35,532 nucleotides of DNA from a virus: the IMG/VR virus record IMGVR_UViG_3300030109_004479, positions 1 to 35,532 of that record. One strand, 5' to 3'. Position 1 is the first letter of the stretch, and each line of letters opens with the position of its first letter. Position numbers and translations under genes: made by a program. The notes beneath the pieces were generated by a model. The model was given only the letters and a program-made list of their open reading frames with translations. It had not been told where the DNA came from and ran no database searches. This document shows, in pieces, positions 3,609 through 35,532 of the stretch.

Positions 3609-3611
3609 AAA

Positions 3612-16221: not shown

Positions 16222-16827
16222 ATGGCTATATTTGACTTTCTTCGTCGCAGGAAAAAACTAAAAGAGGATCAAAAGCTTTCTCCTACTAAATACTTACAAG
16301 GCATGAAAGATAGCCCCATTGGGATGGGACAGCCTGAAGTTATAGGTAAAGGTTCTGATCCAGATATTGCCCCTTTAAGTGCTCCTCGTACAAGACTTGA
16401 CTCTATTAAACCCTTAAATATCCAAAAGCCTAAACAAGATGAAAGGGAATTTGATGTGGAACCTTATGGATTCCTTTGGAACAAAGACAAGGTTAAGCGA
16501 GATGTAAGAGCTGAAAAACCAAATGTAGATATTTTTAGGGATAGAATGATGTCTAGAAGGAATAAGAGGAAAAAAGATGCTCAAGCACGGTACGAAGAAC
16601 AAACAGCAGCTAGAAGTAAAAGAGCGGGAGCTAGAAAAGAAAGAACTCCTGAACAAAGGCAAAAAGAATATGATGAAGCGTTTAGTAGGCCCTTAGGAGA
16701 AAACACAATAATGGGAATAGCTTCTGCAAATATAGCGGGAAGGCAGCAAGCTATGATAGACAGGGCCGCTAAGAGACGAGAAGAAAAAAGAAAAAAAGAA
16801 GCAGCTAAAAATAATAATAATAAATAA
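16222..16827 (+). CDS. Basic protein of unknown function
   Basis: This 201-residue protein is rich in Lys and Arg and has a basic start, MAIFDFLRRRKKLKED. The middle contains EFDVEPYGFLWNKDKVKRD. The C-terminal 80 residues form a charged helix with many Arg, Lys and Glu, ending in an Asn-Lys tail encoded by AAT repeats. It could bind nucleic acid or act as a scaffold, but no motif proves this. It precedes the next gene by one base and lies between terL and the giant gene, where a virion protein would be expected. Confidence 0.65.
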   Translation: MAIFDFLRRRKKLKEDQKLSPTKYLQGMKDSPIGMGQPEVIGKGSDPDIAPLSAPRTRLDSIKPLNIQKPKQDEREFDVEPYGFLWNKDKVKRDVRAEKPNVDIFRDRMMSRRNKRKKDAQARYEEQTAARSKRAGARKERTPEQRQKEYDEAFSRPLGENTIMGIASANIAGRQQAMIDRAAKRREEKRKKEAAKNNNNK

Positions 16828-18235: not shown

Positions 18236-21200
18236 ATGGCTGAAAAAAACAATTTTTCTGACTTTCTCCCTTCTTCAAATAAAGATACTACAGGTAAGTC
18301 TTTACAGTGGGGGCCTAAACAAAAACTAAATACGTGGCAAGGAGGGTCTTATGATCAATATCTAGACTACGTTTTTGATTACACGGTAGATGCAATAGGC
18401 TCAGGGGACTTCGATCAAAATAGATTTGATGGAATAATGAGTGCTTCTTATGAAAAAGCTAAATCAATAGACCCAGAGAAGGCACAAAATTTCAACGATT
18501 ATAAAAGTTCACTATTTTCTGATGATGTTCCTTTTGAAAAAGAAGCTGCTTTATATGAAAAGTTAAACACTTTTAATCCTAATATCCATGACCAAGATAA
18601 AGTAAATTTTTTTAAAGCACACCATGTTGATCTTTATGGTGAAGATAAAGAAAACCAAACTCCTTTTTCTAAAAGAAAACCTGTAGGAGAAAATTTATCG
18701 CAAGAAGAACAAGTATACGCTGCGACTCGTGATCATTTTGATTCTTTAAAAAGAGAAGTCACGGGTGAGTTTTCTGAAAATAGGTTGCCTTTTTCTTCTT
18801 ACTATGATGAGGAAGGTAAAAGACAAGTTAGCGTTGCATCTACACAATTTCTTACAAGTAAATTTCCAAACTTTAAAAATGCTTTCAATAAAGCTTTAGA
18901 TAGTGGAGCTATTTCAAAAGGAGATTTATTACGCATAGCCCCGCAGTTGCAGTTTTACGGTGATTTCAAAAAGACAGTAGATGAAATACAAAGAACTAAT
19001 AAAAACGTAACAGCGGTACAAGATAAATTAGTAGAGCTGAGAACTGCGGCTAATAATATTAAAGAACAAGAGGGCTTTGATAGGGTAGGGCCTGACGATC
19101 TTTATGATTTTAGAGCGAGATTCAAAGGAGACTCGGAGCGCAGAAAGGTTATGAGTGAACTAGCCCAACAAAATGTTGAGGCTAGTAAAGCGTTATCTGC
19201 GATAGAAATTTTAGTTCGTTTAAACGATTTAGAGTTAAAAGAAAAAGCTGCTGTAGATGCAGTTACAGCTACAGATTATTTTGTTCCTGTTAAAGGTTTG
19301 TTTTCTGATGCTTTCAAAGCAAGTTTTAAACGCTCTGTAGGAGATAGGTTTGATACGGCTATTAATTATATTGGCTTGGGTAGTGGGCGAGAAAATATTT
19401 TTAGAAATAGGATGCCTTTAGATCCTCTAACTATCAATGCCGATAGATTAATTAGTAGGCTAAACCAAGAAGAGCGTGAGTTTTTAACAAACCCCAAAAA
19501 AATAGCGGATTCTTTAAGAGCCGCTGTACCTTCATTAAAGGATTCTTCTGATGAGGAGATACTAGATAGTATGTTTCATGTAGTGGGTTCTGCGTTAAAC
19601 AACTCAGGAGCTTTAAATTATTTTAAAGATGACAAACAAAGATATTTAAATATTAGGAAGTTCGCTGACTTTGGTATATCTGCCCACCCTCAGTTAATGC
19701 TAAACAGAAATGTGTTTGAAAAAGCTGTAGCCCAACACCCTGAGTTAGATGAGCAGGAAAAAAAGTTCTTAAAAGAATCAAGAAAAGATTATTTAAATAA
19801 TACTTATAATAATTCTGTTAGGTTAATTACAGAAGCAGGTAGGGGAGGTAGGCAAATATATAAAAGTTGGACGAAGTATCTTGAAGAAAACTTAAAAAGC
19901 TCAACAGATAAAAAGAAGTATGAAATACTCGACGACTTTTTAGCTGATGAAGATAACTATAGTGAGCTTGCTGCTTACGGGGAAGCCTCAATAAAAGGCA
20001 CTGTAGATGGAGGGCTCTCCGTAGTTTTTGGATTAGGGGCTCTTTTGGGCAGCGAAGGAGCTTATTACAATTATGAAAAAGCAAGACAACGGGTTAATAA
20101 AAGAAAAGAGCTAGCAGCTTTGTTTGGGGAAGATGGCAAAATTCTAGAAGCATTTAACATACTTCCTGAAGTGGGTGTTGATATTGCACTGACTGGAGGA
20201 ATTTCAGCGGTGATTAAAAAAGGAACCACAAAACTTTTAACGAAGCAACTTGCTTCAAAGGGGTACAAGATATCTTCAAACGCTGCTACGAGCAGAGCCT
20301 TAAGAGATGCTTTTTTAACTACAGATTCTAAACTTTTAAAAGATAAAGCCGCTCGTCTTATCCTTGATAAAGATGGGTTAGTTCCGTTAAAGGGATCGTC
20401 TACTAACGTTATAACAAAACTTGTTGATGATTTAACTGCAATATCAGGAGGTAAAACAAACAAGCTTACAGATTTAGGAAGAGTTGCTTTTAGTGTAGGA
20501 GCACCCGCAGGAGTTAGATCAGCAAGCATGTCTTATTACACTTACATGGATGCAATGCCTGACTCCATGACGTATGAGGAAAAGAGAGAAGCCGCTTTAG
20601 GGGGTGCTCTCTTTAGAGGTTTAATTACTGCTGGAATCACTATTGGCTTTTCTGTAGCAGGTAAAGGAAGTGTTGAATCCTTTGGTGCTAAAAGAATGAG
20701 AACCATTCACGATATTAAGGGGATTAGACACGCAAGAGCTAGTTATAAAGAGCTTATCAAAATGTCTTCTGCTACAGATAAAGCAGGAAATTCTTTATTA
20801 AATAGAATAGTAGCAGAGGTTGCGGCTAAAACAGGAAGAGAAGGTTTAAGCAAGTCTATTGCTCACGGACTTACTGGATTAGTCACAAAAAAAATACCAT
20901 CAGCTTTTAGAAAGTACGTGCTTCCTGAGAGTATAGAGGAGGGACTAGACGAGTTTTTAGGGAGCTTTGTTGATCAGAAAGTTTTAAATGAAAACATTTC
21001 TTTCGGAGACAGGATGGCTAATACAATACACGCTTCCGTCTTAGGAGGGTTTATGGGAGGAGGCATACCTGCAATAGCTACTTTAGCAGCCAAAGTTAAA
21101 AGTAAATTAAAGCTAGGCCCTGATGAGTCAGCAATAACAGAAGCAGTATATAGAGAAGCTGTTGATGAGGTTATAGCTGAAGCCGCAGAGATTAATGAAA

Positions 21201-24200
21201 AAGCAGCAGCACTGCGGGAGAATGGGGCTCCCCTGACAGCTGAAGTTTTAGAACAAAACAGGAGGCAGCTTCTTTCTGGTTTTGTTAAAGACCCTGTAGC
21301 ACCAGCAGGTTCTTTTAATATGACTACTACTGCCAATACTGTTATTGATGCAGATAGAGATCCTGAAGAAGTAGTAACGGTTTTAGCAGAAGACATTACA
21401 GGGATGTCTGAGATAGAAACAAAAGAAGGATCTAACTTATATCAAGTAGAGTATGTGCCTAAAGATGGTTCTGGAGAAGTTCGTGTAGCTTATACTAAAG
21501 ATGCTAGCGTAGCTAGAGTTAGTGTTAGGAAGAAAAAAGTAAATGATAGGCAGGAGTCTTCTCTTGTAGAAATAGTAGACTATCCTTTGATTCCAAATGT
21601 AACAGATCAAGCGGATCAATTAGCCAAGCAAGAAGGAATCCAATTAGCAGTAGATACTTTTGTAGATCAAAATAGGGTAAGCCTAAAAAATAATGACATA
21701 ACAGTAGTTACTGATCCGTCAGAGGATACACTGATACAATTAGGTTTAGATATAGATCCTGAATCTGAAAAATACCAGAGCATAACGGGCAATGAATATT
21801 TCGTTGATATTACCAATGAAGGAAAAGTTGTTTTGGTTTTAAACACAAACAACATAGCGGAAACATCTTCCTCTATTCCTAAAGCAAGAAGGTCTAAGTT
21901 TGTTAAAAGTTCTTTTGTCGAATCAATGGCTGCTGCTTTTGAATTAGTATCTAGCAGAAATAAATTTTTACTTTTAGATCAAGAATCTACAGGGACTCTC
22001 AGCCTTAAAGATTTCATAACCAGAGAAAGAACAGCAATCTATGAAGAGATGAGCCCTTACGAAAAAGACAGGGCTGCTTCTTTTGTTTTAGGGGAAGATC
22101 TTGTTGAGGGGTTAGAAAGTAAAGTAACAGATAAAGAAATTCTAGTTGCTGCCCACATTAATTCACTGGTTCAATTTGAATTATTGGGAGGTACTAAAGA
22201 AGTAGAAAAATCTGCATGGGGAGGTAAAGCACGAGGAGGAGCATTATCAAATTCAGTAAAAGAAAAACTCTTAGATATATTAGATTATTTAAGAGCTGCT
22301 GTTAAAACTGCACAAGATACTTTTAGACCAGTTATTAGAGAGTACATCAACAACATATCCGATAAGTTAACTTCAGAGTTTTTTACTGAATTAGAAAAGA
22401 TTACTCCTGAAGAGTTTAGTAAAATAATTGAAAACAACGAAGGCGTAGAGGGAGCTCAAGGGGAGCAAGGAGTAGAAGGTGTTGAAGGAGTAGAGTCTTT
22501 AGAAGACATACCAGTTGCCTCTCAAACATCTATACCTCAAGTAATAAACGTTTCTTCTGCACCTTCTCTAGATATCCCAATCGTAAAAAGTTTAGACTTT
22601 AACGTACCCCAACCTGAAAAGGCTGGCGTAGTTCACGGTCTTAACCAAGACACAGGGGATACTGTCGTCATCGAAGGACTGAGCATAGACGAAGCTCAGA
22701 CATATGTAGAAGGAGTATCTATAGTTAATAGCAATAACCCTGATTTAATAGAACCTACAAAAGTAAATAACTTATTACTTGAGGAAGGGTCAGATTATAA
22801 TTCTGATGCCAATACTAAAGTAGCTTTAGTTTCTTCAACTAATTCTGTAGCTGTAGATTTAAGTGATGTAAGAACCGATGACGATTTGTCTCCTTTAAGA
22901 GAAGCTATACTTCAAAACCCTTTATTTTCAAGGATGATACTAGAGGGAGAATTTGATGGGAACAACGTAGCTTTTGTTATTAAGATAAGACAAGGCCAAC
23001 CCCCTGTTTTATTGGCAGTTCCAAAGTCTGTTGATTTTAGCAGAAACTTAACAGAAGAAGATATAGTAGCTCTTAAAGAAGCTGATCCTGTAGGAGTCAG
23101 AATAGGAAGACTGTCTGATCCTGTTAAAGAAAAAATAGCTTCACACATAGAACAATTAGCGGATAAAGGTTTAGGTATTCGTCTTTTGGATGGGCTGCCT
23201 GTATCAAACGTTAACCCCGAAGTCCAAGACCAAACAGATTTAGATGTTCAGTTATCTTCTATATCTTCTCCAGAAGAAGTTGTTGAGCCTACAAAAGAAG
23301 GCGTAGCCGACATAGATCCTGATGAAGCTGAAGAGGCTCCCGACATAAAAGATAAAGCTATCAAAAAACAATCTCGTTTAGCAGATAAAATCTTACGCTC
23401 TGTAAAGAGGAGATTATTAAGAGAAGGAACTCAAGCTTACGAAAGTAATGGAGAGCCTTATGTCGCTTGGTACGACTCTGCTAGAAAAGCTATAGGTATT
23501 AATTCTGAAATGGTGAAAGATTTGCTAGCGCAGAACAAACCAGCTGCTGGTAAAGCTATAATAAATCTAGCTATTGATGAAGAATTAATTCATCAAATAT
23601 CTTGGGAAACTTTAACATACAAAGAAAGACAGAACGCCATAGAAGAACTTGTCAACGCTGACAAGTTAGGAGCTAACGCTCTTATCAGAATGGCTAAAGA
23701 ATACAATGAGCCTATAAAAGGGTACCCCGTTGAAAAAGTAATAACGTATTTACGTATGGGTCAGCCTGAGTATTTAGACTTACCCGAAGGTGTAGAAATA
23801 AATAATAAGAACAGAGCTATTAAAGAAAGCTTAGAAGAATATTTATTTGAAGAGCTTGTAAGAAAACATGTTTCTTTGGTTAGTAGACGAGGCTCTACAG
23901 AAACTGATTTTGATTGGCTGAGGATTAAAAAAAACCAAGGAATACTATCTTTGTATAAAAAATACATAGAGAACTTTTTGATGGGTAGGATTAGATCTAA
24001 AAACCAGCTCAACAAAGATTCTAAGATGGGGCCTTATTTTGAAATAGCTGTTAACAAAATAGCTAGTGAGTTTAAAGCAGCTAGACAAGGATTCCGTAGG
24101 AAACCTGACCCTACACAATTAGATGATTTAGATATAGACTTAGGAGTCTATGGAAAACAAAACACTTTAATAGGTAATGAGATAAACACAGTCGCTCCAG

Positions 24201-27200
24201 AAGAAGAAGAGCGAGAGGAGTGGATGTCAGAAATAGACCCTGAAGAAGTAAAGAGAAACGTTGTTGTTGGCAAGACTGTAGGTACAAGAAGTCCTTCTGC
24301 AAAAGGAACAGAAGGTCAGGGGGCTGACCCAAACAATCAGGTAGATCTAGCATCTTTAAGATTAAACCCTGAAGCGTACAAAAAGAATGCACTTGTTCTT
24401 TTAAATTTCCCTATAGTTGCAAAAGAATTTTCAGGAGATCCTTTACTAGGAAAAGTAAGGAAGGCTAAAAATCCTGTAGACAAAGCAGAGATTAAAAAAG
24501 AAGAAGCTATACAAGACATAGCACAATCTAAAAAGAAACTTGTAAGCGATTTAATAAGTTTTAAAGTAAAAGAAAAATCAGATCAACTTAAACCTGAGAG
24601 AAAAGAAAAAGCTGACGAAGCAAGACAATCTTTTAAAGATTCTGAGAAAGCTTCAAATAAACTGAACTCAGATGTTAAGAGATTAAGGACTTCTCTTACA
24701 CGAGCTAAGAAAAATTTAAGAGCTTCTATTAGGAAAGAAGTTAAAAATATAAATTCTGAAATAAGGAAAGCTTCTGCTGTAGGCAACAGTGATAGAGCAA
24801 AAGCTTTAGAAGAACAAAAAGCAGAGATTGAGTCTGTGCTTTTAGAAGAAAGTAAACCAGCTATTCTTATTGAGGAATTAAATTCTAAAATAGAAGATTT
24901 ATTACGCAAAGGAGCCAGACTAAAAGGCAATGTTAGATCAGCTAAAACTGTTATGAACAGTGCTCTTAAAGAGTATAGCAAACCTAAAGTCCTTAGATCT
25001 GAAATAAAAATATCCTCTGCGAAGGCAGTAGACATTATTGAAGAGTTGGCTCAAGATATTAAAGACGGAAAGCCTGTTAGGGTAGGAGCTAAAAGTTTAA
25101 TTGTTAAGCTAGAAGCAATTAAGAAAAAAGAAAATCAACTCACTAAGTTTAGTGCAGACCTTAAAACTAAAACAGATAGACTGTCCTCTAAGCTAAAAGC
25201 TTTAGCAAAAGCTGAAAGATCTTATCCGATAGAACAAGCAGACAAAATTTATTCTTCTTTAAATGATGTAGCTACTAAGAACTTAGGCATCCTTATAAGG
25301 ATGTTCCCTCAAGACTTGAGAGTGTTCGCTTCTCTTTGGTATGATGGTGCAAACTTAATAGCCAACAGGTTTGCTGATGCTTACAATATTTCTTTGGAAC
25401 AATCATCAGCCATACTAGCTGTTAATAGCCCACAAAAAGACTGGTATATGAACGTCGCTTTAGCAGAACGGACAATGCATATATACACTGCTCGTCAGGG
25501 ATATGTTTTTGATTCATCTATGGCTAATAACTTTTTAAAAAGAGCGGGAGAGCCAGAATTAAAAACAGATAAAAATGGTAATTCTTATTACGAAGGCAAC
25601 GCAACTCCTGTATATGATGACGAAGGAAACCACGCAACAGACAGCGAGGGCATACTTCAATTTAATAATTGGGACAGCCAGAAAGCTAAAGACAAAAGAG
25701 ACAAAGAAGCTAAGATATTAAATCTTGGATTAAGAGGTAAAGCACTTAAAGACATACAACCTATATCTTTTAATTTTAAAGGTAAAAAAGTTTCTTACAG
25801 CAAAGAAGCACTGCAAGCTCGATTTGTAAGGATGTTCTCTGAAGCTACAGCAAACACATCTTTTAGAGACCCTAAGACTTTTAATGTTATCAGACCTGAT
25901 GGAGCTATCTTAGATAGACCTACTTTATCAGACAAAGGTAAACCTCGTTCTATAGCGTGGGGTAGTTACTCTACTATAGAAAAGTCGATTAGAATACTAG
26001 AAGCTCCTCAAGATCAAGAGATGGAGTCTGTATCTAAAGAACTGGGGCTCATGCATAAAGTCCGTTCTTTTTACAATAACATCGCAGACCCTTCAAATTC
26101 TTCGGGTCATGTTACTATGGACACACACGCCATAGCTGCTCTTTTACTAAAACCTGTCAGTGGAAATAGCACTGAGGTTACTCAGAACTTTGGTGGTAAG
26201 GGAACATCATCTGATGCTACTTTGGGGTTGAGTGGATTGTACCCTGCTTTTGCTGAAGCATATAGATCAGTAGCTTTCCAAAACGATTTGTCGGGAGCTA
26301 ACTATTTAGTTAGAGAAGTTCAATCAATAACATGGGAAGCGGTCAGACAATTGTTCCCACCTAAATGGAAGAGCAATAAAAACCACGTAAGGGTAGTAGC
26401 AGAAATATGGAATGACTATGAACTAGGAGATATTACTTTTGAAGAAGCTCAAGAAGATATAATAAAGTTTGTTCAGACTTCTAAGGCGAAAGGTATGCCT
26501 GAAGAAGAAGCGTTATCTGTAAGCGAAACGATAGACTCCGCTAACCTCAAAAGAGGTATAGGTGTAGGAAGACCTGACTGGGGGCAAGCTGCTCCATTGA
26601 CAGTTAAAAAAGGTATAGAAAAACCAAAACAATTTAGTTCTATATCTTGGCAAAACTTAGACGCTAAATACAAAAAATTAGCTAACACTAAAAACGTACA
26701 AAAACACGCAGATCAATTATTTAATTTATTGAGAGAAGCTTCCGACCAAGCAGAGAAAAGAATACCAAATTCATTTACTTTTCAAGCTCCTGATTTTAGA
26801 TCGGGTGGTATTGAAAGAGATATTGAAGTTGTAAAAAATCCAAAAGGAGATGATTTACTTAAAGGAGAAAACAAATTAAGCAGAGATTTCATACTAACAC
26901 CCGCCAACAAATATGCATTTACTCCTTCTCCTTCTATATATGTTTCAAGAGCGTTAGGGCTTCAAGAGTTTCTTCTTGTATCTGAAGTGATAAAAGAAGA
27001 TGGCTCTCTATTAGTTACAATCAGAAGTGGTACAACAGAACCTTATTATCTTTCAGGAGCAGGACTAGAAACTGCAAGGAGATTCTATGGGGAAGAAGCA
27101 GAAATAGTTTTTGATGTGGGGGAGGATTCTTATAACGAATCTCTAGCTGAACAAATAAAAGACTTGTCTCCAGTTAGATACGAAGGGGGGAGTGTAATGC

Positions 27201-30200
27201 CTTTAACTTTGAGGCTTGCACCACTTCAGGATGATCTTAAATATGAAGAAGTTCCTGTTGATGACGACTTAAATAGGTTAGCTCAAGTAGAAAACACATT
27301 GCGTGATCCCTACGATCACGCATCAAGATACGACGAGCATGGTTCAGCTATGGTTTCTGTAGATGACAAATTAAATACAAATATAAGAAACATTTTAGAA
27401 ACCGTAGTTAATACTAAAAATGTTAAAACTGGGGAGCCTACTATATTTAAAGAAATGGCTCAGACTTTACTCGAAACTTTTTCCGACGATCTTTTAAATG
27501 TCCGAGTTAGGAGATCTGATAAAGATCATTCTTACTCAAGTCCTGCTCGTGGGATTTTCTTAGCCAACCAAGAGACACTTAATGTTCCTTCTGATTACCC
27601 AAACGCTATAAAAGAAAGTGTTACACAAAAATTAGAAACACTTACAGTTAAAGAATGGTTGCACTCAAAATTCAAACACCCAATAGATGCGATACTAAAT
27701 TGGGACGGAATAAAAAAAGGGTTAGAATATGAAAACGATAATTACTCTGCGCTCGATGAAACCCCTGACATAAATGATTACGGAGATTATTCTGATCTTT
27801 CAGACGAACAAAAAATTATTCTTGAAAGGTTTGTAAAATATTATGCAGGGGATAGAGAAAGTACTGATAAGGATCATCTTAACTTTAAAAAGAAACCTGA
27901 ACTTCAAAAAATTATTAGCTGGAATAATGTTGAAGATTTTACTAGCTCTGAATTTTTTCTTAATGAAGGCAAAAATTTTGCAGCTGATAAAACAAAAGTA
28001 AAAACAACAGCCAAGTTTATATTAAAAGGTGTGACCCCATCAACTGTAATCCATGAGATTATGCACCAAGCTACCCAAAGGCAGTTTGATAAATTTATTG
28101 AAAGTAAACTCCCAAGAAAAGACTTAGATAAAAAAGCATTAAAGAATGGGTATAAAAAAGTATCCGAAGATCAGAACACACCTCAGCCTATACGGGATAT
28201 ACTCAAGCTTTACTTAACAGCAATAGATTACGGAGACACTTATCTCTTAAAAAAATCAAACTTTGGTTTTGATGCGCCATCTAAAAGAACTACTTATGCT
28301 ACGTCGGCTATGAGTAACTATAATCCTACTTCCAAATCTACTTTTTATGGGTTAGGAAATATAGACGAGTTTGTTGCAGAGGCTTTTTCTAATATTGAGT
28401 TTCAAGAATGGTTAATGTCTATTCGTGACCCTGAGGCTGATGCAAAAGGAGAGAGCAAAAGTCTTTGGGATAAGTTTGTTGATCTTATAACAAATCTTAT
28501 TAACAATTTTAGATTAAACCCAGATTATGTCTCTTCAAGAGGAGTTCCTATTCGAGAGTCTCTTCTGAGCTCAACAGTAAAAGCTGCCTTAGAAGTAGCT
28601 TCAATGAATAGGTATGTTGATCCTGAGCTATACACAGCAGAGCAATGGGCTACTACGTCGGGGGCCAAAGCAGCAATAAAAGAAGCAAAGGCATTAAAAG
28701 CACAGAAAAAGGTTAAGTCACCAAATCCTCAGAGAGTTGCTGACGCTGATCCTAAGTATGGCATTTTACGTATAGAAGCGTTGGGGTTAAACAAACCCCA
28801 TGCTACAAGAGAGTTCTTAGATAAGAACTATAATTTAAAACAAGAAAGCAGTCAAAACACTCAACGGCCTAATACGGTTGAAACATATAGAAACTTGTGG
28901 GATTTCATCGAGGGAACAGCTGAAGAAACATATAATAGAGAAGCTGCTGAGGATATAGTTAGAGGTAAATCATTTAAAGACTACACGTTTAACATTTTGG
29001 ATTGGGGTTCAGGAAAAGGTTTAGGATCTCCCGCTCTAGAAGAACTTTCTAAAAATAGTTATGTACGTAAGGGAGGAAAGATGGGAGGAGAATGGGGAAC
29101 AGATTTTGCATTTAATTCTTTGGAACCTTATTTCCAAGATGCAGAAGGATCTGTTGCTCCTACTCTTAAAAAGAACCCGCCCGCTGAGTCTCAAGATTTT
29201 ATTATAAACAACGTAGTTATGAACGTTGTCACGGCTGACGAAAGAGTTGAGATTTTAAAAGACATTTATAAATCTTTAAAAGAAGGAGGCAAGGCAATAG
29301 TAACTGCTCGTAGTGTACTTGATGTATTTAATACTAAAGGTCTTACAGTGGTAGGCCCTGCTGAAATCGTAACTAAAAATAGTTTTCAAAAAGGTTTCAA
29401 CAGTGAAAGTCTTAATGCTTTTGTTAAAGAAGTTTTGCCAGAAGCTATAGTAAATATTAAAGGATCAAAAACTTTTGATGTAAGAATTAACCCAGAAGCT
29501 GTTTTAATTGAAAAGCCTTTTGCGGCTGGTGCAGATGTGGCTTCGGATTCGGAACAGGGACTACAGTACTCGAAAATTCGTTCAGGAGATTTGCGTAATA
29601 AAAGGCAAACTATTTACAGTGTTCAGAAAGAAGCCGAAGCATCAGCAGAATATTTTACTCCAAAGAAGTTACAAGAACTTAGGAAATTAATTGAAAGCAA
29701 TGTACCCCCTGAAATTATTAAAGGAGCTTCTTTAACTTCCTACACAAATACATTTAGGCTTGGAGGGCATGTAGAACTTGAAAGATATATAAGAAACAAT
29801 TTTTCAGGAGAAGACGCTATTAAGGCTATAGAAAAAATTACAGGTAAACCTAACTCATCTAAGACTCCTCCTCTTAGAAAACCGTACACGACCATTCGTC
29901 AGATAGGTGGAAAATCTTTTAAAGATTTTATGCAGAACTTTTTTACCCCTTATTTAAATGGTAAAGCTGATTCTAAGATTATAAAACTTATAGAAGATAA
30001 TGTTCCTGAAAACATTATTAAAGAAGCTAAAGAAGTTGAGCCTCCAAGGAAAGTTGATCTTGTTGTAAAAGGAAATTGGACAGGCGAAGAAGCTGTACAA
30101 GCAGTAGAAAAAATTACAGGTAAACCTAACTCTTTAAAACCAACTACCCTTAAAGCTAGACAAGAACCCAGATCTTTAGGTGGAGAATCTTTAAAGAATT

Positions 30201-33200
30201 TTCTTAGGAATTATATGGTTCCTTATTTAAGTGAGTTCGGTGGTGACTTGGAGTCTGATAAGGATCTTAAACAATTTACTAAAATCAGAGGAGACGAAAC
30301 CTTCTCTGAAATGAATGCATCTAGACAAGAAGCAACAGCCAAGGCTGATGATGCAATTAAAAAAGCTTCGTTCGGCATGGATGTAGAAAGGATCATGGCA
30401 TTATTTGGGCCTAAAATGTACGACGCTAAACTGGCTAAAGTTCTTGTAAAAGAATCAGCTCAAAACTCTTATGATGCTCTTAAAGATTTATTTGAAATTG
30501 ACCCAAATTTAAAACCTGAAATTGAATACGGTTCTTGGACATACGGCAATAGCGAAATAGATAAAGAAAGAGCTTGGAAATGGGGGCAGATTATCAAAGG
30601 AAGAAAATATGGAGAGGTAGCAGTACCTGAAGAATTAATTGAAGACTCAATTAAGGCATTAGAAAAAGGCAAAGCATTTGGTGATAGTCAATGGTTTTAC
30701 GTCAGGGATAATGGAATAGGAATGAATCCTGAGATTATAAATAATGCTTTCTTTACTTTGGGTGGAAGTTACAAACAATCTAAAAAATCATCAGGAGGTT
30801 TTGGTCTTGCTAAAATTCAAATGCTGCACTCAGCGGAAGAAGTTTTTATAAAAACAGTTAGGGACGGAGTTCAGACAACTGTTCGTGTAGACCACGACAC
30901 CTTGATGCAACAAAAAGATTTTGATATGGTAACTACAGAGGTACCAGAGGGAACCCCCTCAGGTACGCAAGTCTGGTTGAAGTATCCAAAAGAAATAGAT
31001 GGTCAAGCAGTTGATATGAAACAGTATGAGTATTTGCCAGACCAAAACATTTATGATGAAAACTTTGAAATAAAAATTAATAATGATGGTGAACAATCAT
31101 CGACCTTAAATATAAATACTTTTGATCAAGATCATGGGTTTGAAAAAACTGTTGTAAAAACACCTACTGCTGACGTCACAATTCGTGCTTTAAAAGTAGG
31201 CAAGTACGACAAGGATGGGAATAAGATATACAGTTTATCTTCAAAAGAATCTCCTTGGGGCAAGTCTTATGATAATAGCACTATTAAAATATTTTCTAAT
31301 GGTTTACTTCAATTTGAAAGGAAAACCCCCAACGTTGAACCCAATGATCATTTTGGGGACAAACTGCCTTATCATTTCATAGTAGACATTAATTCTAATG
31401 CAGACACTGCTAGCCTTGATTATCCTTTCAACAACAACAGAGAGGGTTTCTCTCCTCAATGGACAGGCAAAAGTACTTCAGAACCTACTCATCCTATTCA
31501 AAAAGTTATAGATGACGTTGTAAACAAATACAGAAAAGAATACCGTGAGCTCACTTTTTCACAAGAGTTTGATATTATAAAAGGTATAGATGGGGCTGAC
31601 CCTAAACCAAGTGTTCCTGTTGTGTACAACAATATGAACTTTGATTTAAACAGTGACGAGTTATCGCTAATGAATGATATATCTAAAATTATTTTTGATA
31701 TATCAGATGATCTCTTGGATGTATATAAACATGATTATTTTAATAATGAAAACAGTCTTCGTAGTAGGAACTACGTTGAAAGAGCTTTAAAAAATAATGA
31801 GAAAGTTGAGCATGAAAAAGATCCTTCTAAGAATGATAAAGCAATATCCTACCACTACGGGGCAGCCCTATCAAAAAATTGGGGAGGTGTAAATACATCT
31901 AAAGAACCTAATTTAATTTTAGTAAACCCTGTTTATTCATCTACTTTGTTTGATAAAGAAGGAGACATCAGAAGTGATATAGGTATAGAAGGGTTTGCAG
32001 ATTACATTACAGATATTATTTTCCACGAAGTAAATCACGTAAGTCAGAATAACGAAAACGCTGGATTTACTTATGCTTTCTCTGCCATCAAAGGATATAA
32101 ATCTATGCTTGATCCTATCTTTCAAGACAGTAGGCAAAGAATATCTGAACTAATACAAAACAATTATGACACCATCAAAAGAATTAGACAAAAATTTGTT
32201 AAGGGAAGCACTAAATTTCTTGACGCAGAAATACAAGGAAACGGGTTCATTGACTCGGTCAATGAATCTGACGATGTACGTGGCAGAGAAGTACGGAGCC
32301 AAAGGGAAGCTATTGAAGAAAACTTTGGAAAAAACTTCCCCCATGATGAAATCCAAGTCACCGACAGAGGTGTTACTTTACTTGAAGCGTTTAGCAAAAG
32401 AACCTTCAAAGCAGACGAAGTAAATAACGATCCACCTATACAGCGTACACGGATCAGTGCACAGCCAGAAAATAATTGGTCATCCCTTGCAGGTAAACAA
32501 GTAGGAGGTTTATATATTTCTTCTGAAGCTATTGAAGACGGTTACTCTATTCTGGAGAAACCTTCTAACAAAGTGAAGAAAGAACAATATGAACAAGCCA
32601 AGCTTAGATTAGAAGCACACTTAGAAGAAGAAAGAATAAACGCAGAGTCAGAAAACGACAACTACGTACCTTTTTCATATGATCTTGTTTCGATTGAAAA
32701 AGATCAGGTTCGATTCATGTTAATGTCTGATCTTAAAGAAGCTCATCCTTTTGTTGTAGAATCTTTAAGAGTACCACACAGTGCAGACGGAGACATACAA
32801 GAAGGTCGTATAGGAAACGCTATCTTCCACAGGATGGAAACTATTTTAGGTCAACGCCATCCTCTTTACAACTACCACAAAACTATCACCGATCTTGAGT
32901 CTTCTTTAGGACTACTGGGGTCACCAAGTGGATCAGAAAGAGTATGGAAAGATCAGATCGAAAGTACAGGTTTGCGTTACGAAGATTTACTTAAAGAACA
33001 CCAGATTATAAAAGATAAGTTTTTCCCTGATGACCAAAGAACTAAGATCCACACGAAAGATCCTACGGAAGCTCCTGAGTATTTAGAAGCTACTGAATCA
33101 TGGAATATGCTCACTGACATATTGAGAGCGGATATACCTGTAATGGAGGATTCAAGGGGAGTTAAATACTTACAGCGTTTATTGTACAGATCGAAGGCAC

Positions 33201-35532
33201 ACCCTGAATGGAAAAAAGGGGGCAAGTACTGGAGTCTTTTCTTTGGGCCTAACGAAAGAAAGTTAAGAAGATACATAGAAAGATCTAACTTCTTTAAATC
33301 TACTATTGGAAATAAAGTTTTAGCTTACAAGAACACAACAGATGAATTACTTAATTCTGTTTATGTGCAAGCAGGTAAAGAGATACCTTCTCAGGTCATC
33401 ATGGATGCTACTGGATCAACTGATTTAAATGCTCCCGAAGAAATACTTGCACAGATTCAAGAAGATTATCTTAACGAACTGGATGGCGTAAACACGAATG
33501 AAGAGTTAACGGCTGAAGAGAAAGAAAAAGCATTCTTAGATGCATTTAATAATCGAGAGGCTGCTAAATCTAAAGCGAGAACAGAAGCTATTAAAGCAGC
33601 TAAAAGAAAGCAAAACCAATCTATAGCAATAATAAGAAATGATTCTCCAGAATTGGCAGACCATATAGTTTCTTTAAGAAAGTTAGCTGACACTTTATCT
33701 TCTGAGGTAGCTGACATAATTTCATTCACGGCTCCTGATCTTAAACTTAGAATAGGTGCTGGTCTCCAATTGTATTTAACAAAACAATACAGAATATTTA
33801 CCTACAAGAAAGGCGAGTGGGCTAATGAGTTCTTAAATAAAGAGGTACACAAAGATGCAAGAGACTTAGCCTTAGATTACTTTGCAACACATTGGAAAGC
33901 TCAAAGAGTTGAGCACCTTATAAAAGAAGGGGGCCTTACAAAAGAAAGGGCAAACATCGAAGCTCAGGCAGAGCTAGAGTCTAATGATGACTTGGCTCAA
34001 CAAGCATTGGAAGAGTTCTTAAAAAGCTACGAAGGTGACTACGGTGTAGATAGTTTTAAGAGGAGGGGCAATTTACCTGAGGGAATGAGAGCTGCTCTTG
34101 GAGAGTTTAAAGAAGAATCTAACTTAGATATCTTATACAGAACAGTAATAAATCTTGGAGGGTTGGCTTCTAAACTAGCTCTTAAAGATCGTATTGTTAG
34201 TGAAGGAATAAAAGCAGGGTGGTTAGTAACTCAAGAAAAGATAGCTGAGGAAACCGCTAGAGCTAAGAAGTTTGACAGACCTAATCCATATAAAGATTAT
34301 GAAGAGGTCAGCAAAACTACATCTTCGGATAGCGATGTTGCTGAAGTTGCGGGCTCTGAAGGAACCACAAAATTAGGAGCTTTTAAAGTTAAGTTTAATC
34401 CTGATGGTACCGCCAAAGAAGCACCAACAAGAAAACCACCAAACACTGATCCTTTAATTAATTACAGAGTTAAAACAGAAGACGGTTCTGTCGAGGAAAA
34501 AGGTAATTTGTTAGCGCATCCTGAAGTGGCTAGCTACATAAGGTCTATACTTAATCCTGAAAAAGCAAAAGATTTAAACTTTGCTGAACAAGCAGAGAAT
34601 ATATTAGCTCAGATATCTGGATTGAGTCTTGTATCTAAAACAGCGGGTTCGGTACCCTTTTATGAGAGACAGGTTCTAGGCTCTTTCTTATTCTTAAGTC
34701 AAAACGGGTTACCCGCAAGTGAGATAGCAGGTTATATCCCACAACTTGGTTCAGAAATTAAAAGGCAAGTGTTCCCTTCAGGAGTATTTAATAAGAGAAG
34801 TTATACTCAAAACGATTCTGCCGACAGGGGCAGCATGGGTTATTACGCACAGCTCTCTACTTTAGGAGTTCTAGACGGTGGTGTTAATTATGCGTTGTTG
34901 CGAGATTTGTTAGGGGGAAGTAAAGGCTTTTCCATATCAAGAGAACGTGATGCCGAAGATATTCAATTAGAAATTGATAACTTACAAGACCCATCCAGAG
35001 CAGAAAAGTTTAAAAGCAAGTTGTTCCCAGAAGGAAGTGTACAAGAAAAGACTTTGTTAAAGGCAGCTGGCATGATCGCAGGTACTGGAAGTATCGCTTC
35101 CAAGAAGGCGCAAGCTTTGGTTTTAGCATTAGATAACGCTATGAAAATCGTTGCTTTTGAATATGAAAAGCAAACTATCTTAGCCGCTAGACAAGACTCA
35201 ATAGAGGCTAATAGAAATGACATGTACAAAGACATGACCAATGCAGAGGTTGATGCCCTTGCAGGTGATATCATTTTGAAAACGCAACAGTCTAGAAGTC
35301 AAAGTGCTCCTATCGTAAAGTTCTTTGCAGAGTTTCCTGTGGTCAGAGTCATCACGGCTCCGTTTGCTAGGTTCATAGGTGAGAACCCAAGACTGATGAC
35401 TAATATTCCACGTCAGGCAAGAGCCGAACAGAAAAGTGAGAACCCTATCATACAGGCAAGAGGTAAACGAAGAGCCAACGGATTTATAGGAACAAACTTT
35501 GTTTTGTATATGGCAATTCCAAAACTTGTTCA
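18236..35532 (+). CDS. Giant multidomain phage protein (polyvalent type), 3' end outside window
   Basis: ATG 18236 opens a frame of 5,765 codons without a stop up to the window end; I read it codon by codon. Approximate residues: 1-580 unrecognised helical; 587-952 glycine-rich hydrophobic stretches with PESIEEGLDEF at ~898; 1403-1420 collagen-like GVEG repeats; 2083-2322 long coiled coil; 2360-2640 HhH-glycosylase-like module; 3273-3382 HEIMH zincin; 3535-3760 methyltransferase; 3818-3998 duplicated module; 4070-4250 GHKL ATPase; 4597-4601 HEVNH zincin; C-terminal LYLTKQYRIF (~5180) and PFARFIGENP (~5709). Enzymes strung together in one giant protein near terL fit phage polyvalent proteins, thought to be packaged and injected with DNA. 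No Shine-Dalgarno precedes the start. The role is inferred; the open frame and motifs are direct. Confidence 0.92.
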   Translation, partial: MAEKNNFSDFLPSSNKDTTGKSLQWGPKQKLNTWQGGSYDQYLDYVFDYTVDAIGSGDFDQNRFDGIMSASYEKAKSIDPEKAQNFNDYKSSLFSDDVPFEKEAALYEKLNTFNPNIHDQDKVNFFKAHHVDLYGEDKENQTPFSKRKPVGENLSQEEQVYAATRDHFDSLKREVTGEFSENRLPFSSYYDEEGKRQVSVASTQFLTSKFPNFKNAFNKALDSGAISKGDLLRIAPQLQFYGDFKKTVDEIQRTNKNVTAVQDKLVELRTAANNIKEQEGFDRVGPDDLYDFRARFKGDSERRKVMSELAQQNVEASKALSAIEILVRLNDLELKEKAAVDAVTATDYFVPVKGLFSDAFKASFKRSVGDRFDTAINYIGLGSGRENIFRNRMPLDPLTINADRLISRLNQEEREFLTNPKKIADSLRAAVPSLKDSSDEEILDSMFHVVGSALNNSGALNYFKDDKQRYLNIRKFADFGISAHPQLMLNRNVFEKAVAQHPELDEQEKKFLKESRKDYLNNTYNNSVRLITEAGRGGRQIYKSWTKYLEENLKSSTDKKKYEILDDFLADEDNYSELAAYGEASIKGTVDGGLSVVFGLGALLGSEGAYYNYEKARQRVNKRKELAALFGEDGKILEAFNILPEVGVDIALTGGISAVIKKGTTKLLTKQLASKGYKISSNAATSRALRDAFLTTDSKLLKDKAARLILDKDGLVPLKGSSTNVITKLVDDLTAISGGKTNKLTDLGRVAFSVGAPAGVRSASMSYYTYMDAMPDSMTYEEKREAALGGALFRGLITAGITIGFSVAGKGSVESFGAKRMRTIHDIKGIRHARASYKELIKMSSATDKAGNSLLNRIVAEVAAKTGREGLSKSIAHGLTGLVTKKIPSAFRKYVLPESIEEGLDEFLGSFVDQKVLNENISFGDRMANTIHASVLGGFMGGGIPAIATLAAKVKSKLKLGPDESAITEAVYREAVDEVIAEAAEINEKAAALRENGAPLTAEVLEQNRRQLLSGFVKDPVAPAGSFNMTTTANTVIDADRDPEEVVTVLAEDITGMSEIETKEGSNLYQVEYVPKDGSGEVRVAYTKDASVARVSVRKKKVNDRQESSLVEIVDYPLIPNVTDQADQLAKQEGIQLAVDTFVDQNRVSLKNNDITVVTDPSEDTLIQLGLDIDPESEKYQSITGNEYFVDITNEGKVVLVLNTNNIAETSSSIPKARRSKFVKSSFVESMAAAFELVSSRNKFLLLDQESTGTLSLKDFITRERTAIYEEMSPYEKDRAASFVLGEDLVEGLESKVTDKEILVAAHINSLVQFELLGGTKEVEKSAWGGKARGGALSNSVKEKLLDILDYLRAAVKTAQDTFRPVIREYINNISDKLTSEFFTELEKITPEEFSKIIENNEGVEGAQGEQGVEGVEGVESLEDIPVASQTSIPQVINVSSAPSLDIPIVKSLDFNVPQPEKAGVVHGLNQDTGDTVVIEGLSIDEAQTYVEGVSIVNSNNPDLIEPTKVNNLLLEEGSDYNSDANTKVALVSSTNSVAVDLSDVRTDDDLSPLREAILQNPLFSRMILEGEFDGNNVAFVIKIRQGQPPVLLAVPKSVDFSRNLTEEDIVALKEADPVGVRIGRLSDPVKEKIASHIEQLADKGLGIRLLDGLPVSNVNPEVQDQTDLDVQLSSISSPEEVVEPTKEGVADIDPDEAEEAPDIKDKAIKKQSRLADKILRSVKRRLLREGTQAYESNGEPYVAWYDSARKAIGINSEMVKDLLAQNKPAAGKAIINLAIDEELIHQISWETLTYKERQNAIEELVNADKLGANALIRMAKEYNEPIKGYPVEKVITYLRMGQPEYLDLPEGVEINNKNRAIKESLEEYLFEELVRKHVSLVSRRGSTETDFDWLRIKKNQGILSLYKKYIENFLMGRIRSKNQLNKDSKMGPYFEIAVNKIASEFKAARQGFRRKPDPTQLDDLDIDLGVYGKQNTLIGNEINTVAPEEEEREEWMSEIDPEEVKRNVVVGKTVGTRSPSAKGTEGQGADPNNQVDLASLRLNPEAYKKNALVLLNFPIVAKEFSGDPLLGKVRKAKNPVDKAEIKKEEAIQDIAQSKKKLVSDLISFKVKEKSDQLKPERKEKADEARQSFKDSEKASNKLNSDVKRLRTSLTRAKKNLRASIRKEVKNINSEIRKASAVGNSDRAKALEEQKAEIESVLLEESKPAILIEELNSKIEDLLRKGARLKGNVRSAKTVMNSALKEYSKPKVLRSEIKISSAKAVDIIEELAQDIKDGKPVRVGAKSLIVKLEAIKKKENQLTKFSADLKTKTDRLSSKLKALAKAERSYPIEQADKIYSSLNDVATKNLGILIRMFPQDLRVFASLWYDGANLIANRFADAYNISLEQSSAILAVNSPQKDWYMNVALAERTMHIYTARQGYVFDSSMANNFLKRAGEPELKTDKNGNSYYEGNATPVYDDEGNHATDSEGILQFNNWDSQKAKDKRDKEAKILNLGLRGKALKDIQPISFNFKGKKVSYSKEALQARFVRMFSEATANTSFRDPKTFNVIRPDGAILDRPTLSDKGKPRSIAWGSYSTIEKSIRILEAPQDQEMESVSKELGLMHKVRSFYNNIADPSNSSGHVTMDTHAIAALLLKPVSGNSTEVTQNFGGKGTSSDATLGLSGLYPAFAEAYRSVAFQNDLSGANYLVREVQSITWEAVRQLFPPKWKSNKNHVRVVAEIWNDYELGDITFEEAQEDIIKFVQTSKAKGMPEEEALSVSETIDSANLKRGIGVGRPDWGQAAPLTVKKGIEKPKQFSSISWQNLDAKYKKLANTKNVQKHADQLFNLLREASDQAEKRIPNSFTFQAPDFRSGGIERDIEVVKNPKGDDLLKGENKLSRDFILTPANKYAFTPSPSIYVSRALGLQEFLLVSEVIKEDGSLLVTIRSGTTEPYYLSGAGLETARRFYGEEAEIVFDVGEDSYNESLAEQIKDLSPVRYEGGSVMPLTLRLAPLQDDLKYEEVPVDDDLNRLAQVENTLRDPYDHASRYDEHGSAMVSVDDKLNTNIRNILETVVNTKNVKTGEPTIFKEMAQTLLETFSDDLLNVRVRRSDKDHSYSSPARGIFLANQETLNVPSDYPNAIKESVTQKLETLTVKEWLHSKFKHPIDAILNWDGIKKGLEYENDNYSALDETPDINDYGDYSDLSDEQKIILERFVKYYAGDRESTDKDHLNFKKKPELQKIISWNNVEDFTSSEFFLNEGKNFAADKTKVKTTAKFILKGVTPSTVIHEIMHQATQRQFDKFIESKLPRKDLDKKALKNGYKKVSEDQNTPQPIRDILKLYLTAIDYGDTYLLKKSNFGFDAPSKRTTYATSAMSNYNPTSKSTFYGLGNIDEFVAEAFSNIEFQEWLMSIRDPEADAKGESKSLWDKFVDLITNLINNFRLNPDYVSSRGVPIRESLLSSTVKAALEVASMNRYVDPELYTAEQWATTSGAKAAIKEAKALKAQKKVKSPNPQRVADADPKYGILRIEALGLNKPHATREFLDKNYNLKQESSQNTQRPNTVETYRNLWDFIEGTAEETYNREAAEDIVRGKSFKDYTFNILDWGSGKGLGSPALEELSKNSYVRKGGKMGGEWGTDFAFNSLEPYFQDAEGSVAPTLKKNPPAESQDFIINNVVMNVVTADERVEILKDIYKSLKEGGKAIVTARSVLDVFNTKGLTVVGPAEIVTKNSFQKGFNSESLNAFVKEVLPEAIVNIKGSKTFDVRINPEAVLIEKPFAAGADVASDSEQGLQYSKIRSGDLRNKRQTIYSVQKEAEASAEYFTPKKLQELRKLIESNVPPEIIKGASLTSYTNTFRLGGHVELERYIRNNFSGEDAIKAIEKITGKPNSSKTPPLRKPYTTIRQIGGKSFKDFMQNFFTPYLNGKADSKIIKLIEDNVPENIIKEAKEVEPPRKVDLVVKGNWTGEEAVQAVEKITGKPNSLKPTTLKARQEPRSLGGESLKNFLRNYMVPYLSEFGGDLESDKDLKQFTKIRGDETFSEMNASRQEATAKADDAIKKASFGMDVERIMALFGPKMYDAKLAKVLVKESAQNSYDALKDLFEIDPNLKPEIEYGSWTYGNSEIDKERAWKWGQIIKGRKYGEVAVPEELIEDSIKALEKGKAFGDSQWFYVRDNGIGMNPEIINNAFFTLGGSYKQSKKSSGGFGLAKIQMLHSAEEVFIKTVRDGVQTTVRVDHDTLMQQKDFDMVTTEVPEGTPSGTQVWLKYPKEIDGQAVDMKQYEYLPDQNIYDENFEIKINNDGEQSSTLNINTFDQDHGFEKTVVKTPTADVTIRALKVGKYDKDGNKIYSLSSKESPWGKSYDNSTIKIFSNGLLQFERKTPNVEPNDHFGDKLPYHFIVDINSNADTASLDYPFNNNREGFSPQWTGKSTSEPTHPIQKVIDDVVNKYRKEYRELTFSQEFDIIKGIDGADPKPSVPVVYNNMNFDLNSDELSLMNDISKIIFDISDDLLDVYKHDYFNNENSLRSRNYVERALKNNEKVEHEKDPSKNDKAISYHYGAALSKNWGGVNTSKEPNLILVNPVYSSTLFDKEGDIRSDIGIEGFADYITDIIFHEVNHVSQNNENAGFTYAFSAIKGYKSMLDPIFQDSRQRISELIQNNYDTIKRIRQKFVKGSTKFLDAEIQGNGFIDSVNESDDVRGREVRSQREAIEENFGKNFPHDEIQVTDRGVTLLEAFSKRTFKADEVNNDPPIQRTRISAQPENNWSSLAGKQVGGLYISSEAIEDGYSILEKPSNKVKKEQYEQAKLRLEAHLEEERINAESENDNYVPFSYDLVSIEKDQVRFMLMSDLKEAHPFVVESLRVPHSADGDIQEGRIGNAIFHRMETILGQRHPLYNYHKTITDLESSLGLLGSPSGSERVWKDQIESTGLRYEDLLKEHQIIKDKFFPDDQRTKIHTKDPTEAPEYLEATESWNMLTDILRADIPVMEDSRGVKYLQRLLYRSKAHPEWKKGGKYWSLFFGPNERKLRRYIERSNFFKSTIGNKVLAYKNTTDELLNSVYVQAGKEIPSQVIMDATGSTDLNAPEEILAQIQEDYLNELDGVNTNEELTAEEKEKAFLDAFNNREAAKSKARTEAIKAAKRKQNQSIAIIRNDSPELADHIVSLRKLADTLSSEVADIISFTAPDLKLRIGAGLQLYLTKQYRIFTYKKGEWANEFLNKEVHKDARDLALDYFATHWKAQRVEHLIKEGGLTKERANIEAQAELESNDDLAQQALEEFLKSYEGDYGVDSFKRRGNLPEGMRAALGEFKEESNLDILYRTVINLGGLASKLALKDRIVSEGIKAGWLVTQEKIAEETARAKKFDRPNPYKDYEEVSKTTSSDSDVAEVAGSEGTTKLGAFKVKFNPDGTAKEAPTRKPPNTDPLINYRVKTEDGSVEEKGNLLAHPEVASYIRSILNPEKAKDLNFAEQAENILAQISGLSLVSKTAGSVPFYERQVLGSFLFLSQNGLPASEIAGYIPQLGSEIKRQVFPSGVFNKRSYTQNDSADRGSMGYYAQLSTLGVLDGGVNYALLRDLLGGSKGFSISRERDAEDIQLEIDNLQDPSRAEKFKSKLFPEGSVQEKTLLKAAGMIAGTGSIASKKAQALVLALDNAMKIVAFEYEKQTILAARQDSIEANRNDMYKDMTNAEVDALAGDIILKTQQSRSQSAPIVKFFAEFPVVRVITAPFARFIGENPRLMTNIPRQARAEQKSENPIIQARGKRRANGFIGTNFVLYMAIPKLV
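19994..21094 (+). other. Giant protein: glycine-rich hydrophobic segments and EEGLDE motif
   Basis: Residues 587-952 hold several Gly/Ala-rich hydrophobic stretches, including GLSVVFGLGALLGSEGAYY, ALGGALFRGLITAGITIGF and VLGGFMGGGIPAIATLAA. They surround PESIEEGLDEFLGS. The same combination of glycine-zipper helices beside an acidic EExxDE helix is frequent in very large phage proteins. It may be membrane-active and help translocation into the cell. I recognise the pattern, not a named domain. Confidence 0.5.
25310..26200 (+). other. Giant protein: HhH-GPD (DNA glycosylase)-like module
   Basis: The first part (residues ~2360-2415) contains WYDGANLIANRFADAY and LAVNSPQKDWYMN. About 200 residues later come KVRSFYNNI (Lys2608) and VTMDTHAIAALLL (Asp2629). 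This order resembles the endonuclease III/HhH-GPD superfamily, where a helix-hairpin-helix region is followed by the VDTHV motif whose Asp is catalytic. Related stand-alone phage domains of unknown function share the SPQxxW and DTHA motifs. Glycosylase activity is a hypothesis. Confidence 0.5.
28030..28440 (+). other. Giant protein: first zincin metallopeptidase domain
   Basis: STVIHEIMHQATQ holds a canonical HExxH motif (His3273, Glu3274, His3277). About 100 residues later GNIDEFVAEAFSN supplies a glutamate (Glu3378 or Glu3382) as the likely third zinc ligand, as in gluzincin-type phage peptidase domains. It could cleave host proteins or process the giant protein itself. Confidence 0.75.
28838..29515 (+). 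other. Giant protein: class I SAM-dependent methyltransferase domain
   Basis: FNILDWGSGKGLGSPAL is motif I of Rossmann-fold methyltransferases (Asp3589, Gly-rich loop). It is followed by YFQDAEG, the motif IV-like strand DFIINNVVMNVV, a helix ERVEILKDIYKSL and KEGGKAIVTAR (motif VI-like). There is no DPPY or NPPY amino-methyltransferase motif, so the substrate may not be DNA. Confidence 0.75.
29687..30229 (+). repeat. Giant protein: two tandem copies of a ~90-residue module
   Basis: Copy 1 is residues 3818-3909 and copy 2 is 3918-3998. Both run LIExNVPxxIIK, an EDAIKAIEKITGKPNS or EEAVQAVEKITGKPNS segment, then GGxSxKxF and PYL. The DNA encoding EKITGKPN is nearly identical in the two copies, which suggests a recent or conserved internal duplication. 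The function is unknown; the module may bind DNA or the linker of the ATPase that follows. Confidence 0.8.
30400..32060 (+). other. Giant protein: GHKL ATPase followed by second zincin motif
   Basis: The ATPase has VKESAQNSYDAL (N box, Glu4073 and Asn4077), VRDNGIGMN (G1 box, Asp4158), SGGFGLAK (G2 box from 4187) and SGTQVWLKYP (G3 region, ~4243). These are the Bergerat-fold motifs of Hsp90, MutL and histidine kinases. About 350 residues later, DIIFHEVNHVSQ carries HExxH (His4597, His4601), with no proven third ligand. The two parts appear to form a unit that could couple ATP binding to proteolysis. Confidence 0.75.

Follow-up and report, generated by a model that had tools for sequence, protein, structure and literature searches.

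The window analysed here (35,532 nucleotides, bases 1-35532 of a 67,291-b IMG/VR virus record) ends inside a single plus-strand gene, whose product is most likely a podovirus-type ejection protein, the largest in a set of three, grown into a carrier of polyvalent payload. Polyvalent proteins are large multidomain chains, often longer than 2,000 aa, in which unrelated activities are joined (Iyer et al. 2017, PMC5512222). The protein described here, referred to below as the giant, resembles this class in its size and multidomain composition (about 6,088 aa, with DUF7178, a putative methyltransferase, a GHKL ATPase and two HExxH zincins), as well as in its late gene neighbours, since it comes directly after the terminase large subunit (TerL) and its two small companions, with tail fibres downstream. 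The injected multi-enzyme payload proposed in the original prediction has good, though indirect, support from this late position after TerL, from a Cys-free triad of genes as in N4, P22 and JC1, from hydrophobic stretches near the ends of the chain and from multi-enzyme polyvalent homologues.

Extent, continuity and selection of the giant frame

From ATG 18236 to 35530 on the plus strand, the frame runs through 5,765 codons without a stop, as had been noted before (residues 1-5765 at 18236..35532, continuing past the window); at the base composition of the window, such a stop-free run would arise by chance with a probability of about 10^-185. Exactly at the window end, the record carries a fixed-size scaffold gap of ten N (positions 35533-35542), and a literal reading through it leads to a stop at 35549-35551. 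When the contig was extended for the stop codon, as the original prediction had advised, a second frame (35545-36510) was found to be open for 321 residues from the gap edge up to a stop codon at 36508-36510, a stretch that lines up with the C-terminal ends of homologous proteins. For this reason 35551 was rejected as the true terminus, and the stop at this position was taken to be a product of the fixed 10-N placeholder. The sister record IMGVR_UViG_3300030376_006284 (72,657 b), in which the locus is free of N, contains the same gene as one stop-free frame of 6,085 aa, with two bases at the site of the ten N. Thus the full length in our record should be about 6,088 aa, with the end at record position 36510; because ten N stand where the sister has two bases, naive gene calling would cut the giant short at 35551. 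The predicted size of more than 5,765 residues was therefore an understatement.

The comparison of the two copies revealed 272 synonymous and 134 nonsynonymous codon differences for residues 1-4000, and 67 synonymous and 8 nonsynonymous differences for residues 4800-5765, which indicates that the gene is under purifying selection along its whole length. The probability that the long frame arose through misassembly, or consists of distinct genes fused together, is negligible. The scaffold gap at the window end could point in this direction, as could an in-frame TAG within the DUF7178 region of a relative, G003 (IMGVR_UViG_3300031834_000006, giant of 4,733 codons including the TAG). Against it stand the gapless frames of the independent sister (6,085 aa), of G002 (IMGVR_UViG_3300042371_001308, 4,972 aa in one frame) and of G004 (5,508 aa), together with the selection over the full length. 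The artefact named earlier as a possible refutation was hence not what we found, and the frame is real, continuous and selected. The TAG of G003 (L018:8784-8786) reads NN*DGH in the place of NNEDGH in the near-identical G002, and may be a nonsense mutation, a sequencing error or a site of readthrough.

The giant is the longest phage protein found in this analysis, a rank that sets it beside the finds made here rather than beside all known phage proteins. The view that its size is exceptional even for polyvalent proteins holds to this extent, but has to be tempered by the 5,508-aa polyvalent frame of G004, the 4,515-aa protein of JC1 (PMC9144972) and a tape measure protein of 5,002 aa (PMC10770324).

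The giant is the third gene of a late operon

The replication genes (primase, DNA polymerase, exonuclease, helicase and resolvase) are located on the minus strand at 5.3-13.6 kb. The late block on the plus strand is opened by TerL (14260..16023; phrog_2 terminase, E=1.6e-11), followed by a gene for a 201-aa protein (16222..16827), a gene for a 466-aa protein (16829..18229), the giant, more late genes and large tail-fibre genes. TerL adjoins the giant, just upstream, also in the distant relatives G002 and G003 (55% identity). The 201-aa, 466-aa and about 6,088-aa products make up a small-medium-giant set in which the giant is third; this last-and-largest position recurs in most related loci. 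The 201-aa protein is a candidate small ejection protein (the slot of T7 gp14 and N4 gp52) and the 466-aa protein a candidate medium, or tunnel, ejection protein (the slot of T7 gp15 and N4 gp51). The former had no family match and the latter neither a family match nor a phage tblastn match; homology of the two to the gp14 and gp15 families was not detectable, and neither has a strong hydrophobic segment. The candidate portal and capsid proteins (737 and 439 aa) and the 466-aa protein had no match among 50,697 phage records. Shared with G003 are the polymerase (50%), the helicase (52%), the 737-aa protein (47%) and the 439-aa protein (62%).

Two further features of the record were noticed. Tail-fibre-like frames overrun both record ends (window 3-1811 and record 55003-67291) and have PHROG families 13518 and 8745 in common, which suggests a circularly permuted genome cut inside the fibre region. 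After the giant, the late block is interrupted by a small minus-strand island at record 36.6-40 kb (38279-39448 and neighbours), which includes a phrog_1362 gene.

Among known systems, T7 gp14-15-16 and P22 gp7-20-16 resemble the set in gene order and in the lengths of their small (about 200 aa) and medium (450-750 aa) proteins, and they are Cys-free except for one residue in T7 gp14. Their gp16-like members have 609-1,337 aa (PMC8954989), whereas the window slot is 4-10 times longer and contains enzymes. N4 gp50, the ejected virion RNA polymerase, is likewise Cys-free and encoded last in a cassette of three genes (150-644-3,500 aa); hydrophobic stretches lie close to its two termini, and it has a zincin-class domain (PMC5512222). 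The window giant differs from it in being 1.7 times longer and in its payload, consisting of the putative GHKL, methyltransferase, zincin and DUF7178 units, with no RNA polymerase family match in Pfam, PHROGs and NCBIfam scans. The Lessievirus 'DarB-like' polyvalent proteins JC1 gp69 and BcepIL02 gp70 are also third genes of small-medium-giant Cys-free triads (196-510-4,515 aa and 234-530-4,667 aa, respectively), and they too take up about a quarter of the genome. They gave no tblastn match to the window protein, and unlike it they contain, according to PMC9144972, a HepA/SNF2-like helicase region and LPD38. The JC1 giant has been seen in purified virions (PMC9144972). The Rhodobacteraceae phage LS06-2018-MD07 (LS06 below) repeats the Cys-free triad (186-632-3,102 aa), its 186-aa protein being annotated as 'internal virion protein'. 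Its giant (WBK39883.1) shares DUF7178 (38%), the methyltransferase (30%) and a HExxH zincin with ours, but has half the length, another domain order, a weak ART-PolyVal match and no GHKL.

It is very unlikely that the giant is a tail tape measure protein to which enzyme domains have been added, and not an ejection protein of a short-tailed phage. Tape measures offer a precedent for both the size and the fused enzymes, as in the 5,002-aa protein of Thermus phage P23-45 (PMC10770324); they are also ejected and can be free of Cys, as is P1 Sit (1,140 aa, 0 Cys). However, the giant follows directly on TerL and a pair of small Cys-free genes and does not lie amid tail tube genes, it has no family match to tape-measure or tail-tube proteins, and DUF7178 giants occupy the same triad as podovirus ejection proteins.

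Absence of cysteine from the giant and its two partners

There is no Cys in the 5,765 residues of the giant within the window, in the 321 residues after the gap or in the 6,085 residues of the sister protein, and the 201-aa and 466-aa neighbours are Cys-free in both records (the sister copy of the former has 196 aa). In the same phage, Cys amounts to 1.57% of the replication proteins and TerL, and to 0.49% of the other late proteins. The ejection proteins of well-studied phages have the same property: no Cys was found in N4 gp50 (3,500 aa), gp51 and gp52, in T7 gp15 and gp16 (with one in gp14), in P22 gp7, gp20 and gp16, in JC1 gp67, gp68 and gp69 (4,515 aa) or in BcepIL02 gp68, gp69 and gp70 (4,667 aa). 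Mass spectrometry of purified virions detected all three JC1 proteins, through 7, 9 and 51 peptides, respectively (PMC9144972).

Across the DUF7178 giants of at least 1,500 aa we counted 57 Cys per 131,680 residues. The gene directly before the giant was Cys-free in all 23 related loci tested (12,326 residues), compared with 16 of the 62 other ORFs there (p=1e-10). In most unrelated loci (L044, L021, L029, L053, L065, L076 and others) a small and a medium gene ahead of the giant were Cys-free, possibly a general mark of ejectosome operons. The absence of Cys is not exclusive to ejection proteins, being found also in those 16 ORFs, in the P22 scaffold, in the tape measure-like Sit of P1 and in some capsid proteins. 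P1 DarB, which is injected via a contractile tail, has nine Cys. In the open-access literature we found no discussion of cysteine in ejection proteins, and the residue goes unmentioned in two recent accounts of these proteins.

Hydrophobic ends and the DUF7178 core

The hydropathy scan indicated three TM-like stretches in the N-terminal region, at residues 642, 787 and 933 (residues 640-955, 20153..21100), and one at residue 5693; all four peaks barely exceed the threshold. In 14 related giants, 23 of the 25 hydrophobic peaks fell within the first 21% or the last 16% of the chain, as in N4 gp50. The stretch at 5693 belongs to a conserved C-terminal block (residues 5050-5765 onward, 33383..35532), which hhalign aligned with the C-terminus of G002 and G003 (probability 98.7, E 1.4e-16). 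A resemblance of the C-terminus after the gap to LPD38 was seen by eye, and was rejected as it had no HMM or hhalign support. The giant matched neither of the named domain models of the polyvalent class: PF18818 (MPTase-PolyVal) gave no match at E<=1, and for LPD38 there was none either with PF18857 or with hhalign. A peptidoglycan hydrolase was recognisable neither in the giant nor in its 201- and 466-aa partners, and PADLOC, NCBIfam and solved-structure searches on the giant returned nothing decisive.

The DUF7178 domain (PF23802; residues ~2330-2755, 25223..26500) behaves as a hub, being common to hundreds of phage proteins, with more than 589 matches in viral contigs. All of the 14 giants that were scanned contained it; further domains among them are LPD38 (seven giants), ART-PolyVal (three), InPase, GNAT, glucosaminidase or RadC. 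In bacterial genomes it is rare: one scan, covering about 85,000 species, confirmed 19 loci. Two DUF7178 loci (L119 and L125) are in contigs binned as archaeal (uncultured archaeon isolate LFW-28), which may represent an archaeal virus or a mis-binned phage; the LPD38 query also matched Methanosarcina virus MetMV with 50% identity. An alignment of 35 sequences revealed the invariant motifs SPQ..W..N and K(V)R.F.NNI....(V)T.DTH. The glycosylase-like module of the original prediction corresponds to this domain. With the AF2 model of the domain (pLDDT 81), the top nine PDB matches in Foldseek were all Qng1/DUF2419 queuosine glycosylase (E 0.1-0.7, TM 0.2-0.28), and this model-based comparison is at most suggestive of a glycosylase-like fold. 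Despite a motif resemblance to endonuclease III, hhalign of DUF7178 against 13 HhH proteins gave nothing above the reversed control.

Putative enzymes of the payload

The giant contains two HExxH motifs, in agreement with the two zincins predicted earlier, where 0.05 would be expected by chance; both zincins are assigned at the level of the motif. Zincin 1 (residues 3200-3450, 27833..28585) has HEIMHQ at 3273, followed by a DEFVAEAFSN motif as a candidate third ligand, and a similar motif, HEFTHATRRQ, is present in the LS06 giant. Zincin 2 (residues 4500-4700, 31733..32335) has HEVNH at 4597. A variant of the ejection explanation is that the giant is a polyprotein, cut by its own zincins into separate virion proteins, so that no 6,000-aa chain would exist in the virion; we regard this as possible but rather doubtful. 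The zincin is the commonest domain of polyvalent proteins and has been proposed to serve in their processing (PMC5512222), and both HExxH sites are retained in the sister. On the other hand, the N4 virion RNA polymerase also bears a zincin and, as quoted in PMC5512222, enters the virion without being cut, and no cleavage site was identifiable in the giant.

The predicted methyltransferase gained support through its homologue. Residues 3514-3784 (28775..29587), with the motifs ILDWGSGKG and FIINNVVMNVV of a putative class I methyltransferase, match the LS06 'methyltransferase' (tblastn E=5e-20), which itself matches Methyltransf_23 (E=1e-10). A part of this domain in the suggested protection of DNA was not supported. 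C5-cytosine methylation is ruled out because the giant contains no cysteine, and the domain is not like a classic N6-adenine or N4-cytosine DNA methylase because its motif IV is NNVVMNVV and not [DN]PP[YF]; judged from these motifs, a DNA methylase of the usual kinds is unlikely. The giant, in which neither a helicase nor an N6 methylase match was found, is also unlike the P1 DarB-type antirestriction protein, a combination of N6-adenine methylase and SNF2 helicase.

The GHKL ATPase, the third predicted enzyme, was recovered at residues 4065-4400 (30428..31435) with a HATPase_c_3 match of 27.9 bits, above the Pfam cut-off of 25, and a weak PHROG RIIA match (0.076). The alignment of the window and sister alleles shows an N-box (KESAQNSYDA), G1 (DNGIGM), G2 (SGGFGLAK) and G3 (SGT) that are invariant in both, so the region has the complete site and, by its motifs, qualifies as a member of the GHKL ATPase superfamily. 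In T4 rIIA, a phage GHKL ATPase is likewise followed by a fast-varying region; rIIA has been assigned to counter-defence and its C-terminus is highly variable (PMC7824862). The window domain differs from it in being embedded in a giant late protein with a zincin after it, and the comparison should be read as a functional parallel and not as a family placement.

Phage proteins produced inside the cell can likewise contain GHKL-type domains such as that of rIIA (PMC7824862), which would suit a multi-domain intracellular enzyme that is produced after infection for host takeover and never packaged. We consider this very improbable, given the late strand, the co-directional Cys-free triad, the lack of Cys in the giant itself and the terminal hydrophobic regions, all of which argue for the ejection protein.

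Probable exchange of cassettes within a conserved frame

The GHKL ATPase and zincin 2 together form a variable cassette (residues 4013-4721, 30272..32398) that shares 51% identity with the sister allele (40-57% per 100-residue bin), while the two proteins are 90-100% identical outside it. The edges of this patch are abrupt, and recombination may therefore be the cause of the divergence. All catalytic motifs of the cassette are retained in both alleles despite the 51% identity. Scans of viral contigs for relatives of the cassette or of its GHKL core recovered the sister alone, and the AF2 model of the cassette, built from the two sequences, had a pLDDT of 34. The GHKL-zincin unit is the part most likely to be engaged in an arms race.

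A similar picture emerged from G002 and G003, whose giants are syntenic with ours and mostly 90-100% identical to each other. An additional ADP-ribosyltransferase (ART)-like unit, about 240 residues long, is present in one of them, and a second unit has been replaced; both units adjoin the repeated linker RxSRAxxTPQxD...TATAQRMVDAAAKAAGY. The sites of gain, loss or replacement are at residues ~2600-2870 and 3480-3700 (L017/L018). In a ruler, such a difference between near-identical relatives would change the tail length, which further argues against a tape measure. Homology of the window giant to these two is limited to a central block (~2010-2790) and the C-terminal block (from ~5110), and the payload in between is unrelated, with ADP-ribosyltransferases in G002 and G003 and the methyltransferase and GHKL units here. 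The homologous giants carry domains of the polyvalent class (ART-PolyVal, InPase, GNAT, SLT and LPD38), and the single G004 frame joins SLT, InPase, GNAT, DUF7178, ART-PolyVal and LPD38. Taken at the sequence level, this distribution fits a conserved chassis, composed of the ends and the DUF7178 block, with an exchangeable middle payload.

Proposed mode of action and significance

If N4 and T7 are taken as models, the two smaller proteins of the proposed ejection system (201 and 466 aa) would provide the outer-membrane and periplasmic parts of a channel (PMC12633501, PMC8954989). The head would hold the chain of about 6,088 aa until infection begins, when the chain would be threaded through the tail and this channel in an at least partly unfolded state. 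The hydrophobic regions towards its N-terminus (640-955) and C-terminus (~5690) may enter the inner membrane, and the middle with its enzymes (DUF7178, zincin 1, the methyltransferase, and the GHKL ATPase with zincin 2) would then regain its fold in the cytoplasm, where it would act on targets of the host. We propose that Cys is absent because the chain passes the oxidising periplasm, where a chain free of Cys could not be trapped by disulfides.

The polyvalent class was already known; new here are the size, the GHKL-zincin payload, the visible swapping of cassettes and the Cys-free signature shared with proven virion proteins. The main text of the survey of polyvalent proteins (PMC5512222) makes no mention of a GHKL ATPase coupled to a metallopeptidase. 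More generally, we give an even chance to the proposal that the last ejectosome protein of some podoviruses is an exchangeable multi-enzyme delivery chassis, with fixed membrane-entry ends and a DUF7178 core, kept Cys-free for the periplasm, in which the payload is swapped in frame; the middle would then hold GHKL-metallopeptidase, methyltransferase or ADP-ribosyltransferase units exchanged between close relatives. In that case, injected phage proteins could be predicted from nothing but the sequence, wherever a series of Cys-free late genes closes with a giant.

If the ejection explanation is true, the giant would rank with the longest phage proteins on record, and a single chain of this length would have to be threaded via a channel tens of angstroms wide. 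The swapped cassettes would reveal the fastest-evolving parts of the payload, here a GHKL ATPase coupled to a metallopeptidase. The Cys-free triad, checked on N4, T7, P22 and JC1, may serve as a simple sequence mark leading to injected proteins in uncultured phages, and thus to candidate counter-defence effectors.
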